From positions 1 to 23,614 of the IMG/VR virus record IMGVR_UViG_3300028897_001092: DNA of 23,614 bases, one strand, 5' to 3'. Positions 17,036-23,459 of the stretch are shown here, piece by piece; positions within the stretch are counted from its first letter, which is position 1, and each line of letters opens with the position of its first letter. The position numbers were made by a program, and so were the translations under genes. This stretch comes from a virus. The notes under the pieces are model-generated. The model did no database searches, was not told where the DNA came from, and saw nothing but the letters and a program-made list of their open reading frames with translations.

Positions 17036-17293
17036 TCAGCCTTTCTCTTCATTTACAAGCACAGTGCAATAGTAAAATTCATTTCCATTCAAATTGCCAT
17101 AGCCATTGCCATTGTAAAAGCCATCGCCAAAGCCACTGCCCTCGCCAAAGCCAAAGCCAAAGCCATAGCCACCGCCAAAGCCATCGCCATCGCAAAAGCC
17201 ATAGCCATAGCCATCACCATAGCCATCGACCTCATTATCGATATTTAATATAAATTCTGCCTTACTTTGTTCCGTTTTTTCTTCTTTTCCCAT
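17036..17293 (-). CDS. Gly-rich repeat protein 1 (GDG/GYG array)
   Basis: 85 residues. N-terminal segment 'AEFILNIDNEVDG', then about 45 residues alternating Gly with Asp, Tyr, Phe ('GYGDGYGYGFCDGDGFGGG'), then a unique end 'NEFYYCTVLVNEEKG'. The 'LNID' start and 'FYYC...VNE' end are shared with repeat protein 2, so they are paralogs. Such every-second-residue Gly proteins are common in metagenomic tailed phages next to an 'RGW...RRWGTT' gene, as here; no function is known to me. The array is built from GCC-NNN hexanucleotides and is GC-richer than its surroundings. Confidence 0.55.
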   Translation of the reverse strand: MGKEEKTEQSKAEFILNIDNEVDGYGDGYGYGFCDGDGFGGGYGFGFGFGEGSGFGDGFYNGNGYGNLNGNEFYYCTVLVNEEKG

Positions 17294-17296
17294 TCC

Positions 17297-17560
17297 TCAG
17301 CCAATCCCTTCATTTACAAATCCATTGCAATAGTAAAATACATCCACATTCCATTTGCCAAAGCCATCGCCATTGTAAAAGCCATCGCCACAGCTATAGC
17401 CATCGCCATTATAAAAGCCATCGCCACAGCTATAGCCATCGCCATCGCCAAAGCCATCGCCAAAGCCAAAGCCACTGCCCTCGCCAAAGCCATCGCCATC
17501 GCCATCGCCAAAGCCAAAGCCACCGCCCTTATCATCGATATTTAACATAAATCCTGCCAT
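17297..17560 (-). CDS. Gly-rich repeat protein 2
   Basis: 87 residues: 'MAGFMLNIDDKGGGFGFGDG', an array with the near-duplicate 'GYSCGDGFYNGDGYSCGDGF', then 'VFYYCNGFVNEGIG'. Its stop is 3 nt from the start of repeat protein 1 and the boundary DNA 'ggctgaggaatggga' recurs after protein 1, showing tandem gene duplication. The Cys every 13 residues could form disulfides or bind metal; this is speculation. Confidence 0.55.
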   Translation of the reverse strand: MAGFMLNIDDKGGGFGFGDGDGDGFGEGSGFGFGDGFGDGDGYSCGDGFYNGDGYSCGDGFYNGDGFGKWNVDVFYYCNGFVNEGIG

Positions 17561-17569
17561 ATCATCGTC

Positions 17570-17792
17570 TTAATCCAAGCCAAAGCCATTGCCATTGCCA
17601 TTGTCAAGGCCATCGCCTGCCATTGCCATTGTCAAGGCCATCGCCTTTGCCAAAGCCATCGCCATCACAAAAGCCATAGCCATCGCCAAAGCCACTGCCC
17701 TCGCCAAAGCCATCGCCATCGCAAAAGCCATAGCCATCGCCATCGCCAAAGCCACCGCCCTTATCATCGATATTTAATATAAATTCTTCCAT
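17570..17792 (-). pseudogene. Gly-rich repeat protein 3, frameshifted by a 28-bp duplication
   Basis: Begins 'MEEFILNIDDKGGGFGDGDG' at 17792, overlapping the 3' end of the upstream 'RGW' gene by 19 nt. As sequenced it stops at 17604 with an off-pattern 'GNGRRWP'. The 28-bp segment 17591-17618 is repeated exactly at 17619-17646; 28 is not a multiple of three. Removing one copy restores a frame ending 'GLDNGNGNGFGLD' at 17570, about 64 aa. It lacks the FYYC tail of proteins 1 and 2. Either a recent mutation or a length-variable locus. Confidence 0.55.
17591..17646. repeat. Exact 28-bp tandem duplication
   Basis: Copy one is 17591-17618, copy two is 17619-17646, identical base for base (each starts gccattgccattgtcaag). 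It shifts the frame of repeat protein 3 by one base. Confidence 0.9.
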
Positions 17793-19359: not shown

Positions 19360-19700
19360 TTAACTTAATTTTTCTGCACCGTCAGCGCCTTTGCCACATC
19401 CATTTCTATCTCCAAAGCTATAGCCCCGCTACAGCCATCTCCTTTGCCTTCGCCATCACCACAGCCATCACCATCGCCATCGCCAAAGCCAAAGCCAACG
19501 CCACACTCATCGCCAAAGCCATTTCCAAAGCCATCGACATAGCCATTGCCATAGCCATCGCCATCGCCAAGGTCATCTCCGTCTTCCCCATCGCCGGAGC
19601 CATTGCCATTTCCAAAGCCATTGCCATTGCCAAGGCCATCGCCAGCGTCATCGCTAAAGCTATAACCATCATTTGTATATATATTCGGAATCTCTGTCAT
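19360..19700 (-). CDS. Gly-rich repeat protein 4, frame-changed 3' end
   Basis: I start at the ATG at 19700 ('MTEIPNIYTNDGYSFSDDAG'); a TTG at 19712 overlapping the upstream stop is a possible earlier start. A long Gly-Asn/Asp/Phe array follows. After 'GDGCSG' the open frame turns into 'AIALEIEMDVAKAL' and stops at 19365. A -1 shift at GGGG (coding strand, 19427-19424) would instead continue the pattern as 'GYSFGDRNGCGKGADGAEKL', ending at 19360. So this copy too appears frame-changed. 'NDGYSF' pairs it with repeat protein 5. Confidence 0.5.
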
Positions 19701-19990
19701 AAATTTCTTCAATTAAATATCCGGCGATATTACACCAACGCCATCGCCTTTGCCATCGCCAAAACCATTGCCATATCCAACGCCATCGCCATAGCCACAG
19801 CCATCACCAATGCCAACGCCATCGCCATCGCAAAAGCCATAGCCATAGCCAAAGCCAACGCCATCGCCAACGCCATAGCCATAGCCAAAGCCACTGCCAT
19901 CACCAACGCCATTGCCATAGCCAACGCCACTGCGAAAGCTACAACCATCATTATTAAAAGCCATTGCCCTAGCCAACGCCACATTAGTCG
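19419..19990. repeat. Hexanucleotide (GCC-NNN) arrays, cluster B
   Basis: Two arrays (about 19435-19660 and 19738-19990) of the same degenerate hexamers as cluster A. Segment 19818-19851 is identical over 34 bp to 17180-17213, a direct repeat 2.6 kb apart that could support deletion of the SSB-Gp157 interval by recombination. Confidence 0.8.
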
Positions 19991-20000
19991 CCATCGCCAT
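19713..20000 (-). CDS. Gly-rich repeat protein 5
   Basis: 95 residues as drawn: a short Ala-Met start ('MAMATNVALARAMAF', the array's alternate frame), then 'NNDGCSFRSGVGYGNGVGDG' and a Gly-Val/Asp/Tyr array ending 'GDGVGVISPDI'. The start could be the internal ATG at 19964. 'NDG-[CY]-SF' is shared with repeat protein 4. A purine-rich GAAGTGGGAA precedes the ATG at 20000. It is the first gene after the nuclease in the leftward order. Function unknown. Confidence 0.5.
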   Translation of the reverse strand: MAMATNVALARAMAFNNDGCSFRSGVGYGNGVGDGSGFGYGYGVGDGVGFGYGYGFCDGDGVGIGDGCGYGDGVGYGNGFGDGKGDGVGVISPDI

Positions 20001-21442: not shown

Positions 21443-21450
21443 AATTATTA
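21443..21450. repeat. Target-site duplication, left copy
   Basis: AATTATTA directly outside the left end; identical to 23452-23459. Confidence 0.9.
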
Positions 21451-21472
21451 CGGAATGTCCCAATAATTGGTT
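21451..21472 (+). repeat. Left terminal inverted repeat (22 bp)
   Basis: Starts cggaatgtcccaataattgg; exact reverse complement of 23430-23451. Its last two bases are the first two of the transposase -35 box. Confidence 0.95.
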
Positions 21473-21499
21473 GACAATACCTGCTTCTAATGTTATTAT
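21471..21499 (+). promoter_or_regulatory. Transposase promoter at the inner edge of the left repeat
   Basis: Perfect TTGACA (21471-21476), 17-bp spacer, TATTAT (21494-21499). The -35 box begins inside the terminal repeat, so transposase bound at the end could repress its own promoter (inference). Confidence 0.75.
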
Positions 21500-21531
21500 A
21501 TCAATAAATGTAATAACAGAGGAGCAGAGCA

Positions 21532-22422
21532 ATGAATATTATACAGATTTTTCAAAAATTTCCAACTCAACAATCTTGCATTGAACATCTAGAAAATCTA
21601 CGCTGGCCTAACAAAATCATCTGCCCATATTGTGGTAGTGGACACAATTATCCGCTTAAAAATGAATTTAGACATCATTGTAATACTTGTAGAAAGTCAT
21701 TTAGTGTCACAGTTAATACAATTTTTCACGATACAAGAGTACCCCTTCAAAAATGGTTTTTAGCTATCTCATTGATTTTAAATGCAAAAAAAGGAATATC
21801 AGCGCGCCAATTAGCACGAGATATTGAAGTAAACAAAGATACAGCATGGTCAATGGCTATGAGAATTAGAGACGGAATGAATGAGGATATTGGCTTATTA
21901 AATGGAATTGTAGAAATGGATGAGACTTACGTTGGTGGCAAACCACGTAAAATTTGCAAGAAAGATGATGACGATGATTTGCCAAAGAATAAGAGGGGTC
22001 GAGGCACAAATAAACAGCCAGTTATTGGAATGGTAGAACGCAAAGGTAGAGTAAAGGCAAACAAAATAAATAAAAATGAATTAAATATCAAATACTTAAA
22101 TGAACTAATAAGAAAGAACATAAATAAAAACGGTTCTGTTTTAATAACAGATGAATACAAAGGCTATAATAAAGTTTCAAAAATCTTAAAGCATTATCAA
22201 ATAAATCATCAAAAAGAATATGCTAATGGTGAAATTCACACCAATAGCATAGAGAGCTTCTGGGCTATCTTGAAGAGAGGCATTGTTGGGCAATTTCACA
22301 AGGTTAGCAAAAAATATCTTGATAAATATTTAGATGAATTTTGTTTTAGATATAATAGAAGAAAAAACGAAACTAGTTTGATTTTTAATGAGACAATAGC
22401 TAAAATGATATTTTGTAAATGA
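21532..22422 (+). CDS. IS1595-family (ISXO2-like) DDE transposase
   Basis: 296 residues, GAGGAG ribosome site. N-terminal zinc ribbon: 'ICPYCGSG' and 'HHCNTCRKSFSV' (two CxxC, residues about 32-65). Next an HTH region 'LILNAKKGISARQLARDIEV' with 'NKDTAWSMAMRIR'. The catalytic DDE-type domain shows 'GIVEMDETYVGGKPRK' (first Asp, about residue 129), 'VLITDEYKGYN' (second Asp) and 'IHTNSIESFWAILKRGIVGQ' followed by 'FRYNRRKNE' (third acidic/Asn region and Lys). Length matches the family. Conserved arginines, for example in CRKSFS and FRYNRR, are encoded by AGA, showing that AGA must be read as Arg for this enzyme. Confidence 0.92.
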   Translation: MNIIQIFQKFPTQQSCIEHLENLRWPNKIICPYCGSGHNYPLKNEFRHHCNTCRKSFSVTVNTIFHDTRVPLQKWFLAISLILNAKKGISARQLARDIEVNKDTAWSMAMRIRDGMNEDIGLLNGIVEMDETYVGGKPRKICKKDDDDDLPKNKRGRGTNKQPVIGMVERKGRVKANKINKNELNIKYLNELIRKNINKNGSVLITDEYKGYNKVSKILKHYQINHQKEYANGEIHTNSIESFWAILKRGIVGQFHKVSKKYLDKYLDEFCFRYNRRKNETSLIFNETIAKMIFCK

Positions 22423-22444
22423 ACATCTATTTTTTAAAAAATAC

Positions 22445-22473
22445 TTGATGTTTTATTTGTTAAAGGGTATAAA
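22445..22473 (+). promoter_or_regulatory. Promoter for the transposon tRNA
   Basis: TTGATG (22445-22450), 17-bp spacer, TATAAA (22468-22473). Predicted start about 22480, inside the first arm of the hairpin at 22477, so the RNA would begin with that hairpin and run into the tRNA. Confidence 0.55.
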
Positions 22474-22476
22474 AGA

Positions 22477-22505
22477 AAACGGAGATGATGGTTTCATCTC
22501 CGTTT
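22477..22505. terminator. 12-bp perfect hairpin before the tRNA; terminator on the minus strand
   Basis: aaacggagatga (22477-22488) pairs with tcatctccgttt (22494-22505) around TGGTT. On the plus strand it is followed by TTTATAAAAA, a poor U-run; on the minus strand it is followed by TTTTCTTTTATA, a better one. It may end leftward transcripts and/or act as a 5' leader hairpin or attenuator of the tRNA. Confidence 0.6.
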
Positions 22506-22513
22506 ATAAAAAT

Positions 22514-22608
22514 GGCAGGCTGCCAGAGTGGTTTAATGGAACTATCTTCTAAATAGTCAGTGATAATAGAACTATCGCTCGTGGGTTCGAAGCCCACGCC
22601 TGCCGCCA
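22514..22608 (+). tRNA. Class II tRNA with serine-type body and UCU (AGA) anticodon
   Basis: A full cloverleaf can be drawn. Acceptor GGCAGGC (22514-22520) pairs with GCCTGCC (22598-22604); discriminator G at 22605; encoded CCA 22606-22608. D-stem CCA/TGG is 22523-22525 with 22537-22539. Anticodon stem ACTAT/ATAGT (22541-22545, 22553-22557) holds loop CTTCTAA, so the anticodon is TCT (22548-22550). The variable arm is 23 nt with a 7-bp stem (22559-22565 with 22573-22579, one G-T pair). T-arm GTGGG-TTCGAAG-CCCAC (22581-22597). The long arm plus G73 marks a tRNA-Ser; UCU would read AGA, normally Arg. A one-base change (G34 to U) from a tRNA-Ser(GCU) would give it. It could be charged by SerRS, ArgRS or both. 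Confidence 0.85.
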
Positions 22609-22615
22609 TTTTTTT

Positions 22616-22659
22616 ATACACAAAATTATGTGTATCATTAAAGTATAACATAATTTTGT
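22616..22659 (+). promoter_or_regulatory. Alternative hairpins after the tRNA
   Basis: ATACACA (22616-22622) pairs with TGTGTAT (22629-22635), or ACAAAATTATG (22620-22630) pairs with CATAATTTTGT (22649-22659); the two are mutually exclusive. A T7 run (22609-22615) directly follows the tRNA CCA. The region may end the tRNA transcript and/or shape the leader of the 145-aa gene. Confidence 0.4.
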
Positions 22660-22689
22660 ATTTTTACAATATTTTTAAGAGGAGCAATT

Positions 22690-23127
22690 ATGGAAACAAG
22701 AGACATTAACATTCTAAAAGATTTATACGAAAGGCGTAAAAAGGAAAAGCTAATAATAGATAATGAATTGGCACATATTAAAGCCTTAATCGATTTACAA
22801 TTAAATTTACATGGTAATATTCAAAGCGGAACAATAAAAAAACATAGAAAAGTAAATAAAAAGAGCGTGGTATATGAGGCTTGTAAAAATATGATAGGAG
22901 AATTTTGTTCTACAGATATTAAAGAAGTTTTAAATAATTCTACCGATGAAGAAATAAGAAAAATTACTTTATCTTATATTTCCGCTTTATTAGGAAAATT
23001 TTTAAAAGACGAAATATTGATTGTATCAAAACAAGGTGCCGGTCGCGGTAGTTCTAACTATTATTCAATGAAAAAAAACAATGAAATTGACAATGTTAAC
23101 GAAAATGAAGAAATAAAAAACCCGTAA
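22690..23127 (+). CDS. Transposon cargo: coiled-coil plus winged-helix-like protein, 145 aa
   Basis: GAGGAG lies 7 nt before the ATG. Residues 1-45 form a charged coiled coil ('RDINILKDLYERRKKEKLII'). Residues about 58-130 look like a winged helix: 'KSVVYEACKNMIGEFCSTDI', 'LSYISALLGKFLKDEILIVS' and the wing 'KQGAGRGSSNYYSM'. The Asn/Glu-rich tail is disordered. The fold suggests DNA (or RNA) binding; as cargo it may regulate transposition or the neighbouring cargo genes, or act on the host. No homolog recognised by name. The stop codon lies within the stem of the downstream terminator. Confidence 0.6.
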   Translation: METRDINILKDLYERRKKEKLIIDNELAHIKALIDLQLNLHGNIQSGTIKKHRKVNKKSVVYEACKNMIGEFCSTDIKEVLNNSTDEEIRKITLSYISALLGKFLKDEILIVSKQGAGRGSSNYYSMKKNNEIDNVNENEEIKNP

Positions 23128-23149
23128 ATATTCGCGTATTTACGGGTTT
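23118..23149. terminator. Bidirectional hairpin terminator
   Basis: aaacccgtaaata (23118-23130) pairs perfectly with tatttacgggttt (23137-23149) around TTCGCG. On the plus strand only TTT follows; on the minus strand the stem is followed by TTTTTTATTT (counting the last stem bases), a strong U-run. It ends the 145-aa transcript and should stop leftward phage transcription. Confidence 0.75.
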
Positions 23150-23277
23150 GGCAAGCGTTTTGAGACGATACCTTGCCTCCTATAAAAACGCTCTACTTAA
23201 CATAAGTAAAAGCAAGTATAGCATATTTATAGGCTTTTGTAAATTCGTCTCCAATCTTTTTATAAAGGAGGCGCTAT
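23150..23277 (+). ncRNA. Structured leader of the 34-aa peptide, Shine-Dalgarno sequestering
   Basis: Several exclusive pairings are visible. GGCAAG (23150-23155) with CTTGCC (23172-23177). AGCGTTTT (23154-23161) with AAAACGCT (23185-23192). GAGACGA (23162-23168) with TCGTCTC (23245-23251). GCCTCCTATAAAAA (23175-23188) with the segment 23257-23272 that contains the Shine-Dalgarno AAAGGAGG, leaving a 2-nt bulge. TACTTA/TAAGTA and AAAAGC/GCTTTT hairpins fill the middle. The last long-range helix would close the ribosome site and competes with the upstream hairpins, the logic of a riboswitch, RNA thermometer or type I toxin leader. No known riboswitch class is recognised and no clear promoter is seen. 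Confidence 0.55.
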
Positions 23278-23382
23278 ATGCTAACTTGTAAAAAAGTAGT
23301 ACCAGTGCGTGCTTATATTCGCTATAGATTGCGTAAATTTGAGCATGTTTGCAAGCATTGGCGACGTTGGCCTATACGATAG
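23278..23382 (+). CDS. 34-aa very basic peptide, transposon cargo
   Basis: Near-perfect Shine-Dalgarno AAAGGAGG ends 6 nt before the ATG. The product starts 'MLTCKKVVPVRAYIRYRLRK' and continues 'FEHVCKHWRRWPIR'. It has about 11 Arg/Lys, two Cys, two His and two Trp, and no membrane span, so it differs from classic hydrophobic type I toxins and looks more like a nucleic-acid-binding or antimicrobial-like peptide. It is flanked by a structured leader and its own intrinsic terminator, so it forms an independent unit at the right end of the transposon. Function unknown. Confidence 0.55.
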   Translation: MLTCKKVVPVRAYIRYRLRKFEHVCKHWRRWPIR

Positions 23383-23395
23383 TTAGGTAAAATTT

Positions 23396-23429
23396 GGCTC
23401 AAGTGCTAGCAATAGTGCTTGAGCCTTTT
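23396..23429 (+). terminator. Intrinsic terminator of the peptide gene
   Basis: GGCTCAAGTGCTA (23396-23408) pairs with TAGTGCTTGAGCC (23413-23425; two G-T pairs) around a GCAA tetraloop, followed by TTTT (23426-23429) immediately before the right terminal repeat. Confidence 0.8.
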
Positions 23430-23451
23430 AACCAATTATTGGGACATTCCG
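23430..23451 (-). repeat. Right terminal inverted repeat (22 bp)
   Basis: Ends attattgggacattccg; exact reverse complement of 21451-21472, no mismatch. Confidence 0.95.
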
Positions 23452-23459
23452 AATTATTA
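23452..23459. repeat. Target-site duplication, right copy
   Basis: AATTATTA directly outside the right end. Its last three bases are the stop codon (TAA on the minus strand) of the zinc-ribbon gene, so the duplication kept that gene intact. Confidence 0.9.

Follow-up and report, generated by a model that had tools for sequence, protein, structure and literature searches.

Type I toxin-antitoxin systems encode toxins that are usually, not universally, hydrophobic membrane peptides. IS1595 elements that carry passenger genes are already a known kind of transposon, and the protein family PHROG 21154 is listed without a function. Allo-tRNAs have been tied to a transposon-related gene, and a toxin-antitoxin role has been suggested for them (Mukai et al., 2017, as reviewed in PMC7609411).

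The window, that is, the whole stretch of 23,614 nucleotides analyzed here, is a 23.6-kb linear virus record. It harbors one copy of an intact IS1595-family element of 2001 bp (21451-23451; Table 1), which lies inside a phage contig; its cargo consists of a tRNA, a 145-aa gene and a peptide of 34 aa. The element ends, CGGAATGTCCCAATAATTGGTT, are perfect over 22 nt and match at 23 of 24 positions when counted over 24, and the two copies of the target-site duplication, AATTATTA, agree at 8/8 positions. The transposase matches Pfam DDE_Tnp_IS1595 (1.6e-38), including the zinc ribbon, and NCBIfam transpos_IS1595 (4.2e-62). Both features of IS1595 membership are present, namely a DDE transposase with the IS1595 zinc ribbon, and terminal inverted repeats with an 8-bp duplication. 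An earlier note, made from the letters of this DNA, had proposed an IS1595-type transposon with passengers, perfect 22-bp repeats and an 8-bp duplication, more than half of which is not transposase; all of this was confirmed, 1110 of the 2001 bp lying outside the transposase gene. The insertion site is located between a minus-strand phage gene (20558-21424; phrog_10048) and phage sequence beyond 23459. As judged from its sequence, this is a mobile IS1595-family element that jumped into the phage genome and brought its cargo along. Elsewhere in the window, the minus strand of 17036-17792 and 19365-20000 contains several short, GDGDGFG-rich ORFs of low complexity with tandem-like repetition.

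Table 1. Features of the IS1595-family element and its flanks (window coordinates).
Feature	Position	Strand	Basis
Left target-site duplication, AATTATTA	21443-21450		Sequence comparison of flanks
Left terminal inverted repeat, 22 bp, perfect	21451-21472	+	
Promoter-like site for transposase, TTGACA-17-TATTAT, TG-extended	21471-21499	+	
IS1595-family transposase, 296 aa	21532-22422	+	Pfam, NCBIfam
Promoter-like site ahead of tRNA, TTGATG-17-TATAAA	22445-22473	+	Sequence
12-bp hairpin at start of tRNA leader; terminator-like on minus strand too	22477-22505		
Serine-type (class II) tRNA, UCU anticodon, encoded CCA; passenger of window copy	22514-22608	+	ARAGORN, structure
12-bp inverted repeat with 16-nt spacer ahead of 145-aa gene; operator/terminator candidate	22620-22659		
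145-aa protein; N-terminal segment common to L009 147-aa protein	22690-23127	+	
Predicted antisense RNA of about 95 nt with two hairpins; z -4.3	23114-23208	-	Promoter/terminator prediction, folding
Predicted intrinsic terminator of antisense RNA, overlapping end of 145-aa gene	23118-23149	-	
Peptide leader	23150-23277	+	
Predicted antisense promoter, TTTACA-17-TATACT, TG extension; -10 end 63 nt from peptide ATG	23215-23243	-	
Micropeptide MLTCKKVVPVRAYIRYRLRKFEHVCKHWRRWPIR, 34 aa, PHROG 21154	23278-23382	+	
Hairpin and T-run, terminator of peptide transcript	23396-23429	+	Sequence
Right terminal inverted repeat	23430-23451	-	
Right target-site duplication, AATTATTA	23452-23459		

Scans of viral contigs with a single protein, either the transposase or the 145-aa protein, gave no matches, whereas an alignment-based scan yielded 80 loci each from viral contigs and GTDB genomes. 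The best genome matches were found in a Rickettsiales MAG (64%) and an alphaproteobacterial MAG (60%), and further off in Caedimonas (58%) and Deianiraea (54%), which points to a phage host that is probably an intracellular alphaproteobacterium. Among the 80 relatives with clean ends, 76 have more than 400 bp beyond the transposase; therefore, a passenger-carrying IS1595 element is ordinary in this clade, in line with the earlier statement that such members are known. Duplications matching at 8/8 positions flank 53 of these 80. Their passengers are mainly DNA methylases, P63C proteins, and HNH and Mrr nucleases, with ThsB-TIR, AbiV and DUF4145 found once each, and the clean-ended IS1595 elements (n = 80) look like small carriers of defence-like genes.

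The closest relative, L009, resides in a 36.6-kb viral contig and has 72% transposase identity and an identical end sequence. Its cargo consists of a 147-aa gene, a leader and a micropeptide, with about 65 bp at the place where the tRNA would be expected, and the first 30 residues of its 147-aa protein resemble those of the window protein. The layout of a 145/147-aa gene, putative leader and micropeptide thus recurs in a second element. The 145-aa ORF has the ribosome site ascribed to it, but the 'wHTH-like' label given with it was not confirmed: the protein has no Pfam or NCBIfam match and only weak PHROG and PDB matches, and its AlphaFold model is of low confidence and unusable (pLDDT 42). 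A third IS1595 element with the peptide, L101 (Hyphomicrobiales), encodes it on the minus strand near the right end, beside a DNA methylase that takes the place of the 145-aa gene. Recurring in L009 and L101, the peptide is a repeated IS1595 passenger, and the tRNA, which L009 lacks, lies outside that unit. The earlier note had regarded tRNA, gene and peptide as one unit, against which copies lacking both tRNA and peptide were to speak; as far as the tRNA goes, L009 is such a copy and counts against the unit, but it has the peptide together with its gene and leader.

The window peptide and that of L009, MHIKDVYVHAYIRYRMKRFEHVCQHFRSRPS, are 63% identical over 27 aa (E 3e-12), and both match PHROG 21154 (1e-6 and 4.5e-8, respectively). 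By tblastn, the family was found on 100 plasmids when the window peptide served as query and on 124 when a hand-written, consensus-like sequence did, most of the copies being unannotated. A degenerate DNA pattern retrieved 91 stretches from IMG/VR, and nearly all of the 80 loci that were read are true members. In all, family members were seen in about 80 viral contigs, on 124 plasmids and in three IS1595 elements, again mostly without annotation, and the carriers include plasmids, prophages, phage immunity regions and transposons. In phages and plasmids the peptide is found without IS ends. The loci L198-L277, L188-L197 and L289-L293 are members; among them are ColE1-like E. coli plasmids of 4 kb, which bear an AAA ATPase gene as well.

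Merging left 71 different peptides with a common core, about 30-46 aa long and almost all preceded by a ribosome site, such as AAAGGAGGC ahead of the peptide ATG in the window. Codon-position differences across the family amount to 8235:7392:18251, and about half of the changed codons are synonymous; this third-position excess indicates that the ORF is coding and selected as a protein. In the 70 peptides that fit the core pattern, conservation of V, Y, R, R, E, V, H and R follows from the pattern's own construction, and G and F/Y each occur in 68 of them largely because the viral scan required both. As an unbiased check, an alignment of 11 BLAST-found members shows V, V, Y, R, R, E, V, H, R and P to be invariant. 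The peptides are basic, with a mean net charge of +6, and no hydrophobic stretch was seen. A literature text search with peptide strings found no paper, and the peptide module with its antisense-framed layout appears to be undescribed so far.

The leader of the window peptide contains two segments with complementary partners further on: GAGACGA (23162-23168) can pair with TCGTCTC (23245-23251), and the possible partner of GCCTCC (23175-23180) is the ribosome site itself, GGAGGC (23267-23272). Both the window and L009 have one leader segment able to pair with the ribosome site and a second able to pair immediately upstream of it, and the sequences involved are entirely unrelated. Family-wide, pairing of the leader with the ribosome site is weakly above chance (21% in the top decile, p 0.011). 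The earlier proposal of a leader-controlled micropeptide holds as a layout of leader and ribosome site, the control by RNA being presumptive. Of the leader and terminator signals assigned there to the peptide, the hairpin with its T-run downstream of the gene stands, whereas T6 follows the hairpin at 23118-23149 on the minus strand only; as this hairpin terminates better on that strand than on the other, its more likely role is to end an antisense RNA and not the sense transcript. L009 shares this arrangement, with an antisense RNA that is predicted to fold comparably (z -4.2).

These signals were counted in 58 non-redundant loci with 580 random stretches as the control. Opposite-strand terminators upstream of the peptide occur in 21/58 loci, or about a third, versus 5/58 on the sense strand and 48/580 in the control (p 4e-8), mostly 160-220 nt from the ATG. 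Opposite-strand promoters occur in 25/58 loci versus 12/58 on the sense strand and 65/580 in the control (p 1e-8), their -10 ends lying mostly 62-72 nt from the ATG. The usual layout is a leader of ~150-220 nt behind an upstream gene, with the opposite-strand promoter about 65 nt before the start codon. Statistically, across the family, an opposite-strand promoter and terminator frame a short predicted RNA antisense to the leader, although the minus-strand terminators at some loci with convergent neighbors could have other causes. Rfam reported nothing above threshold in the window; manA-II, placed on the minus strand of 23114-23259 over the antisense RNA and its terminator, reached 21.7 bits against a threshold of 100 (E 0.9) and is probably a chance match. 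No Rfam family, including ptaRNA1, was detected at the plasmid peptide loci.

The best explanation, held with a probability of about 0.5, is an IS1595 element with an antisense-RNA-gated micropeptide resembling a type I toxin-antitoxin system, the tRNA having been acquired separately. The antisense RNA and the leader fold would hold down translation of the small basic peptide, and when the element is lost while the mRNA outlasts the antisense RNA, the peptide would be released; in this way the module may stabilize its host transposon, phage or plasmid. Points that speak against this explanation are the basic rather than hydrophobic peptide, the restriction of opposite-strand terminators to about a third of the loci, the weak family-wide pairing with the ribosome site and the single copy of the element. 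Both the toxicity of the peptide and its control by RNA are what we infer from these layouts, and the family is best read as a module repeatedly loaded onto mobile elements. An addiction module had been suggested earlier for the whole set; it is now the best guess for the peptide part, and the tRNA, absent from L009, falls outside it.

Neighboring genes bear on two other explanations. The upstream gene is on the same strand in 42/56 loci, commonly about 150-230 nt before the peptide, and ImmA/IrrE-type peptidases (Peptidase_M78) account for 15 of the 35 upstream neighbors scanned (a raw count), with phrog_2439/phrog_87 in 15-16 of them; Peptidase_M78 is absent among the families listed for downstream neighbors. 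The peptide directly follows the repressor gene and a gene of about 173 aa in Salmonella phage Oslo and in a phage-plasmid. Such arrangements would suit a peptide that is a regulator rather than a toxin and that partners, inhibits or triggers the protein encoded upstream, as part of a switch for lysogeny or stress that the antisense RNA tunes; the upstream protein would be the ImmA/IrrE-like peptidase in phages and plasmids and the 145/147-aa protein in IS elements. This is a doubtful alternative, as the upstream gene is different or on the opposite strand in many loci and the L101 peptide has no such partner within its IS element.

Downstream neighbors are often convergent and include AAA_13, Abi_2, DUF3800 and TIR (raw occurrence). 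In P2-like prophages and unrelated plasmids, the peptide gene converges with a large AAA_13-type ATPase gene, the stops being about 9-50 nt apart (L199, L211, L223, L240, L242, L246, L270 and L275; plasmids L189, L191 and L196); these plasmids are enterobacterial, and in Acinetobacter plasmids Abi_2 and DUF3800 adjoin the peptide. The peptide might belong to the adjoining defence genes, as an inhibitor, antitoxin or sensor for nucleases and ATPases. The short distance to the ATPase genes, about 10-50 nt, fits this in several P2-like prophages as well as in unrelated enterobacterial plasmids, and so does the Acinetobacter arrangement. It is nonetheless improbable, since the partners vary widely and are missing from the window, L009 and many phages.

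The remaining passenger was reported by ARAGORN as a tRNA-Arg(tct) of 95 nt. It folds into an intact class II tRNA with 7/5 stems, a 7-bp variable arm, a serine-style D-arm (GAGTGGTTTAA), G73, an encoded CCA and the acceptor pairs G1-C72 and G2-C71. The structural features of tRNA-Ser (long variable arm, serine D-arm, G73 and 7/5 stems) are thus present, with the arginine anticodon UCU instead of a serine anticodon, and the best near-full-length DNA matches are phage tRNA-Ser. Structurally it is a serine-type tRNA despite its arginine anticodon. Rfam preferred tRNA-Sec (RF01852), which was rejected at 39.6 bits against a threshold of 47. AGA is the most frequent Arg codon of the phage, and columns of the transposase alignment aligned with AGA are Arg in 55% and Ser in 1% among 161 relatives, and a change of the genetic code was rejected on these grounds. 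Because AGA is read as arginine in the element, the tRNA, if serylated, would mistranslate.

Four further viral contigs (L298, L305, L308 and L318) have class II UCU tRNAs, and a pattern search detected such tRNAs in 0/115 alphaproteobacterial genomes. Other IS1595 elements contain class II tRNA-like genes whose anticodon is UGC, adjoining DNA methylase cargo (L102:6700-6789 and L103:2914-3004). L133 was not counted, as its tRNAs are part of a host tRNA cluster and its supposed element ends consist of tRNA sequence. The tRNA could itself be the functional cargo: with a UCU anticodon and serine as its amino acid, it would mistranslate AGA as a weapon, addiction device or regulatory missense suppressor, or it would be a decoy for anticodon nucleases. 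Its intact fold with the serine identity features, the promoter-like site that the earlier note had placed ahead of it, and the tRNA genes in the four contigs and the two elements are consistent with such a role; even so, it is most improbable, since the tRNA is missing from L009 and nearly all of about 150 relatives, the L102 and L103 copies have imperfect stems and no CCA, and strong expression should harm a host that reads AGA as Arg. Under the preferred explanation, the tRNA would be a separate acquisition whose presumed charging with serine would let AGA be misread, or it may be kept as a decoy or resistant tRNA.

More broadly, and only tentatively, antisense-RNA-gated basic micropeptides may be a very widespread and overlooked class in phages, plasmids and IS1595 transposons, often encoded beside defence ATPases or ImmA/IrrE peptidases and serving in general to trigger addiction or immunity, with IS1595 elements also trading serine-type tRNAs with foreign anticodons. 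If true, a gene of 30-40 residues, mostly unannotated on the plasmid records searched and also present on plasmids of common enterobacteria, would be a device for control or addiction that many mobile elements have in common. The family offers a defined sequence signature and RNA layout that are directly testable, and a serine-type UCU tRNA on a transposon provides a naturally occurring example on which the idea of mobile missense suppressor tRNAs can be tested.

Compared with the systems introduced above, the element shares with passenger-carrying IS1595 elements its transposase family, 8-bp duplication, end sequence and a passenger downstream of the transposase; those elements mostly carry DNA methylases, P63C proteins and nucleases, whereas this one carries a tRNA and an antisense-framed micropeptide. 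Like allo-tRNAs, as the review describes them, the tRNA is class II and serine-type, with serine identity elements, judging from its predicted fold, and a non-serine anticodon; allo-tRNAs have an 8/4 or 9/3 acceptor branch, whereas this tRNA has the canonical 7/5 branch and a UCU anticodon (PMC7609411). The description of PHROG 21154 does not include the antisense RNA, the leader, or the plasmid and IS spread seen here. Finally, the peptides differ from type I toxins such as those of hok/sok and tisB/istR in being basic and soluble-looking, with the core V..Y.R[FY]R.G..E.V..H.R in place of a hydrophobic membrane helix, and resemble these systems in a very short ORF with a ribosome site and protein-level selection, a structured leader, an RNA predicted to be encoded in cis and antisense to the leader, from promoter and terminator signals that are enriched at the sequence level, and a distribution over plasmids, prophages and transposons.
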